From: Micromonospora olivasterospora
GTDB taxonomy: Bacteria > Actinomycetota > Actinomycetes > Mycobacteriales > Micromonosporaceae
DNA length: 64,000 nucleotides
Assembly: GCF_007830265.1 (NCBI RefSeq)
Contig: NZ_VLKE01000001.1
Span: 1,550,001-1,614,000 of the forward strand
Direction: 5' to 3'
The position numbers and the translations under genes were made by a program. Below are positions 57,662 through 58,801 of the stretch, piece by piece. Numbering within the stretch: position 1 is the first letter of the stretch; each line of letters begins with the position of its first letter. The notes beneath the pieces are model-generated. The model made no database searches, was not told where the DNA came from, and was given only the letters and a program-made list of their open reading frames with translations.

Positions 57662-58042
57662 ATGAAGCGGATGCGCACGTTCCTAGCTACCGCGCTTACC
57701 GTCGGTCTAGCGGGTCTGCTTGCCCCTCTCGTCAGCCCGTCTCCGGCAAGCGCTGCTTGGTCGAGCTGCCCGGCGTCCGAGTTCTGCATCTTTGACAACA
57801 TCAATTTCGGGGGAGCCTATCTCCGCCCCGCGCTCAACACCCCAAGCCAGTGGGGCAACTTCACTAACGCAAACTTCAACGACAGAGCCAGCTCTGCCGT
57901 GAACAAATCGGGTTACAGGTGGTGCCTTTACGAGCACGCGTATAAGGGTGGCAAACGCTTGGTGTTCCCGCCGAACACGCAGATCAGTGACTTTCGCCGG
58001 TACGGCTGGAACGACCGCGCCAGCAGCACCGCAATATGCTGA
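57662..58042 (+). CDS. Secreted peptidase inhibitor family I36-type protein
   Basis: The 126-aa product has a classic signal peptide with probable cleavage after SPASA (near residue 31), then a beta/gamma-crystallin-like domain with four cysteines. Motifs are CPASEFCIFDNINFGGAYL and WCLYEHAYKGGKRLVFP. They match the I36 family (SMI from Streptomyces nigrescens), which inhibits metalloproteases. The gene has lower GC and less biased third positions than its neighbours, which suggests recent acquisition or relaxed codon selection. GGTGG precedes the ATG. It lies opposite pcrA. Confidence 0.85.
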   Translation: MKRMRTFLATALTVGLAGLLAPLVSPSPASAAWSSCPASEFCIFDNINFGGAYLRPALNTPSQWGNFTNANFNDRASSAVNKSGYRWCLYEHAYKGGKRLVFPPNTQISDFRRYGWNDRASSTAIC

Positions 58043-58250: not shown

Positions 58251-58280
58251 TTGCGAACCGGGAGCCGGGCTGGGCATACT
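58251..58280 (+). promoter_or_regulatory. Promoter of the chorismate mutase leader
   Basis: TTGCGA (58251-58256), an 18-nt spacer and CATACT (58275-58280) precede the leader GTG at 58288 by 7 nt. Transcription should start at or next to the GTG, giving a leaderless leader peptide. Confidence 0.65.
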
Positions 58281-58287
58281 CGACGGC

Positions 58288-58353
58288 GTGTTCGGTCAGC
58301 GCTACTACTTTTACTACGGCACCGGGAGTCCGGCAGCCGTGGGTCGCGCCTGA
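58288..58353 (+). CDS. Aromatic leader peptide upstream of chorismate mutase
   Basis: A 21-codon frame starting with GTG encodes VFGQRYYFYYGTGSPAAVGRA. Five aromatic codons in a row (Tyr-Tyr-Phe-Tyr-Tyr at 58303-58317) are followed by the antiterminator segment and the stop. The peptide is too short and too biased to be an ordinary protein. It lies directly after a promoter and before a terminator, and the gene behind encodes the branch-point enzyme of Phe and Tyr synthesis. A ribosome would stall here when charged tRNA-Tyr or tRNA-Phe is scarce. See the attenuator entry for the RNA pairing. Confidence 0.75.
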   Translation: MFGQRYYFYYGTGSPAAVGRA

Positions 58354-58400
58354 TCAGATCAGACCTACGAAAGCCCCGGGCTCCTGGAGCCCGGGGCTTT
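58322..58400 (+). promoter_or_regulatory. Transcription attenuator of chorismate mutase (antiterminator and terminator)
   Basis: The terminator is a 15-bp stem: AAAGCCCCGGGCTCC (58370-58384) with GGAGCCCGGGGCTTT (58386-58400). The upstream segment CCGGGAGTCCGG (58322-58333) can pair over all 12 positions (two G-U pairs) with CCGGGCTCCTGG (58376-58387), which destroys the terminator stem. A ribosome finishing the leader would cover the upstream segment and permit termination; one stalled at the early Tyr codons would leave it free for antitermination. Confidence 0.7.
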
Positions 58401-58447
58401 CCGTTCCGGGATCCGGGCACCGGGCCCGACACCCGAGGGGTACGGCG

Positions 58448-58801
58448 ATGATGACAGACGTGGTGGAGCAGAACAGCGGCGCGGAGCGGTCCCGTCCAGC
58501 CGGCGAGCGCACCGATGCGCCGGCCGCGGCGACCGGGACCGGCACGGACGACTCGGCCGCCGCGGCCCGGATCGTCGCCATCCGCGAGCGGATCGACGAG
58601 ATCGACCGCACACTGATCGAGCTGTGGCACGAACGGGCGAGCCTCTCCCGGGAGGTCGGGGCGACCCGGATGGCCTCGGGAGGCACCCGGCTGGTGCTCT
58701 CCCGGGAGCGCGAGATCCTGGAGCGGTTCCGCCAGGCGCTCGGCGCCGACGGCACCCAGCTCGCCCTGCTGCTGCTCCGCGCCGGCCGCGGCCCGCTGTA
58801 G
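58448..58801 (+). CDS. Chorismate mutase (AroQ type)
   Basis: This 117-aa enzyme converts chorismate to prephenate, the first step towards Phe and Tyr. After a disordered Ala/Thr-rich N-terminus of 36 residues, the AroQ helix 1 follows (RIVAIRERIDEIDRTLIELWHERASLSREVGATR), with Arg and Glu residues of the active site, then helices 2 and 3 (REREILERFRQALG and ALLLLRAGRGPL). Length and pattern match the small mycobacterial AroQ-delta-like type that acts with DAHP synthase. GAGGGG precedes the first of two adjacent ATG codons (58448 and 58451). Expression is probably set by the attenuator upstream. Confidence 0.85.
   Translation: MMTDVVEQNSGAERSRPAGERTDAPAAATGTGTDDSAAAARIVAIRERIDEIDRTLIELWHERASLSREVGATRMASGGTRLVLSREREILERFRQALGADGTQLALLLLRAGRGPL

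Follow-up and report, generated by a model that had tools for sequence, protein, structure and literature searches.

The window, the whole stretch of 64,000 nucleotides of Micromonospora olivasterospora DNA that was analyzed, carries a gene for a monofunctional chorismate mutase (CM) of the AroQ-delta type, and direct reading of positions 58251 to 58401 finds a promoter-like site, a GTG codon, a frame with a run of aromatic codons, and a terminator hairpin, all 5' of that gene (Table 1). Through this enzyme chorismate becomes committed to the Phe/Tyr branch, and the best-known control of the actinobacterial enzyme is allosteric, via a DAHP synthase partner. The solved chains nearest to the window protein are chorismate mutases, 5hub, which we take to be the C. 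glutamicum enzyme, and 2qbv (Rv0948c). The upstream neighbor is a divergent UvrD-type helicase gene, and between it and the putative attenuator lies a peptidase inhibitor I36 family gene (57662-58042, forward strand). This co-directional gene ends about 200 nt before the leader promoter.

Table 1. Features of the chorismate mutase gene and its leader in the window
Feature	Position	Strand	Basis or remark
-35-like hexamer TTGCGA	58251-58256	+	Sequence; CTTGCG there in nearly all genus loci displayed
-10-like hexamer CATACT	58275-58280	+	Sequence; precedes the start at 60/60 genus loci examined
Leader peptide gene, GTG start, VFGQRYYFYYGTGSPAAVGRA, 21 codons, TGA at 58351-58353	58288-58353	+	Sequence, relatives; predicted leaderless
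Putative regulatory codons TAC TAC TTT TAC TAC (YYFYY)	58303-58317	+	Sequence, alignment of relatives
Segment A, protector 5' strand, within the final regulatory codons and the Gly codon that follows	58314-58320	+	Fold, pair counts, swaps
Segment B, antiterminator strand opposite 58376-58387; inner stem of the protector as well	58322-58333	+	Fold, covariation
Segment C	58336-58345	+	58336-58342 pairs with A (protector) or 58338-58345 with D (antiterminator)
Segment D, GACCTACG, antiterminator partner of C	58362-58369	+	Alignments, fold; swap support weak
Segment E, terminator 5' arm (loop 58384-58386)	58369-58383	+	Fold, pair counts
Segment F, terminator 3' arm, weak T-run after	58387-58401	+	Fold, pair counts
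Shine-Dalgarno-like GAGGGG of the CM gene	58435-58440	+	Sequence; outside the terminator hairpin
CM gene, AroQ-delta type, monofunctional, 117 aa	58448-58801	+	PF01817 (CM_2); TIGR01808 and PRK07857 above cut-off

The two promoter-like hexamers are separated by 18 nt, and the GTG at 58288 follows the second after 7 nt. A strict sigma-70 scan gives no match at 58251-58280, because the hexamers agree at 8 of 12 positions and the scan demands 9. The initial annotation had described this spacing, the 21-residue frame, and its YYFYY run, all of which are present in the window sequence. Transcription from the leader promoter would start at or near the GTG, making the leader peptide leaderless. In 180 of the 185 distinct sequences that have both a -10-like hexamer and a nearby start, the two lie 6 to 7 nt apart, as sequence would lead one to expect of a leaderless start.

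The terminator hairpin, 15 bp with a 3-nt loop, is borne out by sequence and folding as the initial annotation had it; the T-run downstream is weak in M. olivasterospora (TTTCCGTT) and longer in many relatives. The same annotation had proposed a 12-nt segment, now segment B, complementary to the 5' side of the hairpin. Its length and its two G-U pairs stand, but its partner, 58376-58387, is not purely the 5' arm: 8 nt belong to that arm, 3 to the loop, and 1 to the 3' arm. Four helices compete in all: the A:C protector, with B self-folded inside it; C:D, nested in the B:E antiterminator; and the E:F terminator. The model as first drawn had the terminator and the B:E pairing; the A:C protector was absent from it, as was C:D, the other half of the antiterminator. 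The elements follow one another as in a trp attenuator, and the protector (1:2) stem overlaps the regulatory codons.

Folding energies set the terminator and antiterminator apart from shuffled sequence. For the hairpin region, at -32.2 kcal/mol, z is -5.7, and for the antiterminator region, 58318-58389, at -37.7 kcal/mol, it is -3.6; 0 of 200 shuffles fold as well in either case. For 58251-58448, z is -2.5. Folded alone, 58318-58389 gives essentially B:E plus C:D and 58312-58350 gives A:C. The energy of the protector segment is unremarkable against shuffles (z -1.4, 19 of 200 as good), as is that of 58288-58388 taken whole (z -1.5, 16 of 200 as good). Rfam has zero matches in the window at gathering scores, a permissive Rfam search of six loci returned merely six sub-threshold matches to unrelated families, and the leader peptide has zero matches in NCBIfam.

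Conservation was examined across the genus, the family, and beyond, with an automated rule that calls a leader when a start lies 4 to 9 nt past a -10-like hexamer and at least three Phe, Tyr, or Trp codons fall within six codons. A CM gene was found in 61 of 61 Micromonospora genomes, every one of which passes the rule (61/61), with a hairpin placed between leader and CM at all 61 loci, L027, L056, and L058 among them. Family-wide, CM matches occur in 149 of 150 genomes and 44 of 44 genera. The rule passes 69 of 73 CM loci from the other genera, where the 73 were picked to span genera and where family, order, and class loci alike were hand-chosen from longer match lists. Four loci fail: L110, whose leader has fewer aromatic codons; L125 and L126, where it is degenerate; and L132, a second CM copy. 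Second CM copies L131 and L132 both lack a leader; L131 stands outside the family count, its genome belonging to the genus, and L132 was scored as a failure. L125 and L126 are the two CM genes of one genome (G089), where the Phe and Tyr codons are spaced and the hairpins kept, a state in which decay of the switch is possible.

The aromatic run itself is kept among relatives, bearing out the expectation of the initial annotation, with Phe/Tyr swaps and gains or losses of whole codons. Genus runs read YYFYY, FYFYY, FFFYY, SYFYY, and similar, and their length varies codon by codon, as in FFYY (L013 and L015), YFFYY (L039), and YFYYY (L041). For a test of reading frame, loci with the core motif were taken with the nearest -10-like hexamer followed by a start 4 to 9 nt on; of 261 input loci, 34 dropped out for want of the core pattern and 27 for want of a suitable hexamer and start, and 185 distinct sequences were scored. 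The frame is open and in register to the aromatic run in 180 of the 185, and four of the five exceptions read GTGTG, so that the second GTG is in frame. The start is GTG in 171 and ATG in 14.

Codon counts were made on 202 leaders, with one false row removed. Phe and Tyr both occur in 202 of 202 and Trp in merely 2, and on this ground a CM leader sensing all three aromatic amino acids was rejected. The TTT codon, at 58309-58311 in the window, is present in 201 of 202 leaders, yet seven window genes use it for 0 of their 78 Phe codons; it may set the pace of decoding or prevent the RNA from pairing.

Pairs were counted in an alignment of 66 sequences (A2, 66 of 73 thinned sequences, with L029, L037, L093, L102, L118, L122, and L136 excluded) and compared with slid versions of the same stems; a genus alignment (A1) comprises 47 of 56 distinct genus sequences. 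In the 66 sequences, protector and terminator together have 96.0% of cells paired and both-side changes in 10 of 25 pairs, against 27 to 54% and 2 to 6 pairs when slid, and the antiterminator has 93.1% paired and both-side changes in 6 of 17 pairs, against 19 to 53% and 1 to 6 pairs. Paired fraction and covariation score separate clearly from the slid versions, the bare count of changed pairs less so. In the terminator, 7 of its 14 pairs have changes on both sides, and in A:C, columns 15:37 go from C-G to U-A in 4 of 66 sequences. Individual compensatory cases can also be traced: TAT with CATA replaces TAC with CGTA in L105, L112, and L140, and in family f15 loci such as L181, GGACTCCGG with CCGGAGTCC replaces GGAGTCCGG with CCGGGCTCC.

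An alignment-free swap test, in which the pairing of a sequence's own partners is compared with that of partners taken from other genomes, was run on sets thinned to 28 of 122 family sequences and 26 of 203 class-wide sequences. In the 28 family sequences the whole antiterminator scores z -6.8, with 0 of 20000 swaps as good, B:E -4.4, E:F -11.0, A:C -1.95, and C:D -1.4, and three controls score 0.2 to 0.6; kinship among sequences inflates shuffle-type tests such as this. In the 26 class-wide sequences the values are -7.4 for the whole antiterminator, -3.8 for B:E, -12.9 for E:F, -6.1 for A:C, and -1.9 for C:D, with five controls between -1.5 (A:E) and +3.0 (A:F), in a set where blurring is expected from one false leader row (L282) and from several others whose hairpin arms were divided incorrectly. 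Swap support for C:D by itself is weak, and that for A:C within the family is likewise modest. In the swaps, covariation is seen for the terminator, for the antiterminator taken whole, and, class-wide, for the protector, and the competing stems predicted by the initial annotation are kept in relatives by both pair counts and swaps.

The distribution of the leader reaches well beyond the family. A covariance model built from the 66 family sequences matches 187 of 249 genomes of the order (E 0.01, strict filters); in the M. olivasterospora genome its single strong match has an E of 4.5e-26, and the distinct site ranked after it has an E of 0.024. Among 38 usable model-match loci outside the family, CM is present in 35 by tblastn and in two more (L199 and L212) by profile. 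The automated rule passes 26 of the 38, and in the remaining 12 a leader is visible by eye, these loci failing on the -10 pattern, the aromatic count, or the CM test. At one family f10 locus (L207:331-456, forward strand), the model match precedes a DAHP synthase gene (PF00793), with leader MQAQRWYGFPDRDSRSGAV.

A profile search of 158 genomes of the class found the same CM type in 42 (E 1e-8). Of 20 class loci, 8 belong to family f8, where 4 pass the rule, and 12 lie outside the order, where 7 pass; all 12 of the latter have, by eye, at least one Phe-Tyr pair in a short frame. In family f8, L340, L341, L342, and L346 have the leader, and no such leader is present at L343, L344, L345, and L347, apparently through loss in some genera. 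A DNA pattern scan of named genomes, in which CM was not required, matched at least 120 loci, 80 of them listed with titles; CM lies within 1100 nt downstream in 116, and in the other 4 the contig ends 96 to 155 nt past the match. Among the matches listed are Micromonospora, Paractinoplanes, Dactylosporangium, Amycolatopsis, Saccharopolyspora, Pseudonocardia, Lentzea, Rhodococcus, and others. Confinement of the device to Micromonosporaceae is ruled out by the loci in other families of the order and class.

Together, the locus is very probably a ribosome-mediated transcription attenuator of the trp type, sensing charged tRNA-Tyr and tRNA-Phe and controlling CM, and the reading to this effect in the initial annotation is largely supported by part order, conservation, and covariation. 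Transcription beginning at or next to the GTG would give a ribosome access to the leaderless leader. When Tyr and Phe are abundant, the ribosome would pass YYFYY and reach the stop codon, covering C and D, so that no antiterminator forms, the E:F terminator folds, and transcription halts before CM. Were Tyr-tRNA or Phe-tRNA scarce, the ribosome would stall at the aromatic run and mask A, leaving C to pair with D, and B with E on its emergence, so that the terminator is pre-empted and CM is transcribed. Should the leader go untranslated, A:C would form and sequester C, and the terminator would prevail. The transcription start, leader translation, stalling, termination, and amino-acid response in this scheme are all deduced from sequence; the leader codons match the two end products of the CM branch, fitting the predicted sensing logic.

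An improbable reading of the same parts is that the nascent peptide arrests the ribosome, or that control is coupled to translation with the hairpin hiding the CM ribosome binding site, termination not being the controlled step. The near invariance of the peptide tail GTGSPAAVGRA within the genus would suit an arrest peptide, but the tail differs between families (FFYGTRTPAPV, FTYGNRPAGCHGRAA) where the RNA pairings persist, so that the RNA accounts for the conservation; as for a hidden site, the Shine-Dalgarno-like sequence of CM begins 34 nt past the hairpin. Scarcely credible is an ordinary unregulated terminator, or one serving an upstream transcript, next to a chance frame. GC-rich hairpins presumably form easily in such genomes, but chance placement sits badly with a hairpin found between leader and CM throughout the genus loci, the helicase gene upstream is divergent and the co-directional gene stops well short of the promoter, and antiterminator covariation and in-frame conservation are left unexplained.

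That the attenuator is as described and responds mainly to Phe, or mainly to Tyr, is a real if lesser possibility. The precedent is the C. glutamicum aroF operon, whose Phe-Tyr-Phe leader is described in the accessible text of PMC11802643 as answering Phe and not Tyr, and since both residues are present in every leader counted, sequence cannot tell Phe sensing from Tyr sensing. A mainly Phe response is disfavored by the window leader, where 4 of 5 clustered codons are Tyr, and by the last codon before Gly, which adjoins the segment to be masked and is Tyr in most leaders listed. Attenuator-like anatomy is no proof of attenuation, as changes to candidate regulatory codons of S. coelicolor ilvB had no effect (accessible text of PMC1262725). 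An attenuator reading both Tyr-tRNA and Phe-tRNA is the interpretation we favor for the CM leader.

The E. coli pheL leader has a Shine-Dalgarno-led start. Its Phe leader peptide, like the leader peptide here, attenuates an enzyme that has chorismate mutase activity, but the pheA enzyme is a bifunctional mutase-dehydratase, where the window CM is monofunctional, and the pheL leader is described as sensing Phe-tRNA (accessible text of PMC11802643). The aroR leader, in front of the C. glutamicum aroF operon, has in common with the CM leader an actinobacterial host, the aromatic pathway, a short Phe-Tyr-Phe leader, and ribosome-mediated attenuation (PMC11802643, PMC4046766); it differs in controlling DAHP synthase, with a Phe-only response reported, and the likeness, drawn from the available descriptions, is one of description rather than of sequence or RNA architecture. 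Streptomyces and Corynebacterium trp attenuators share the part order, and S. lividans trpL1 is described as leaderless with a Rho-independent terminator (PMC1262725, PMC8079986), but their codons are Trp and their gene is another. The ilvB1 attenuator of M. tuberculosis has a translated upstream frame and a terminator/antiterminator switch as well, with branched-chain codons and another target (PMC13236596); these trp and ilvB1 comparisons too follow the portions of the sources within reach.

The elements that a 2005 comparative survey (PMC1262725) predicts for actinobacteria are for Trp, Cys, and Leu; its accessible text reports no conserved RNA structures ahead of Phe/Tyr operons in its genomes, among which there are no Micromonosporaceae. 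In the accessible portions of other sources, PMC8079986 describes eight S. lividans leader peptides, none for Phe or Tyr; PMC4633059 treats cysteine-rich upstream frames, with the word chorismate absent; and PMC12125101 mentions only trpL. Our literature search, which had few subscription papers within reach, found no attenuator at chorismate mutase in actinobacteria. The CM leader has, on comparative sequence evidence, a real, strongly conserved, covarying attenuator architecture of a known kind and wide distribution, apparently unreported at this gene. A Tyr/Phe attenuator at CM would add a transcriptional layer of control where the survey text available found none for Phe/Tyr operons (PMC1262725). 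Removing the leader's terminator should free the CM gene, offering an engineering target for aromatic-derived products, and the covarying parts would serve well as natural material for the study of leaderless attenuators in high-GC bacteria.

The first step of the pathway may be read in a similar manner. No comparable leader frame was found in the 700 nt before the conserved domain of class-II DAHP synthase or of prephenate dehydratase in M. olivasterospora. The gene for class-I DAHP synthase in this genome (G000:C1:1269793-1270659, forward strand, locus L360) is preceded by a leader, VTRSYRWFRQPAGGAGDLTMI, which begins a few nucleotides after a -10-like TAGGCT, 332 nt 5' of the conserved domain, and is followed by a hairpin and TTTT. 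This leader has codons for Tyr, Trp, and Phe (VTRSYRWF...) and resembles an attenuator that answers to three amino acids. DAHP synthase leaders have Trp and CM leaders are nearly without it, so codon content appears to match pathway position. We give even chances to a two-tier, branch-matched attenuation in actinomycetes, in which a DAHP synthase leader (Tyr/Trp/Phe) and a CM leader (Tyr/Phe, almost never Trp), both leaderless, would let tRNA charging set flux, with UUU tuning the CM sensor. If this is true, DAHP synthase, the first step toward all three amino acids, and CM, at the Phe/Tyr branch, would each read tRNA charging. Of the 30 class-I DAHP synthase loci found in 46 family genomes, 19 have a leader (L360 and 18 loci of L363-L392), and all 19 of these leaders have Trp.
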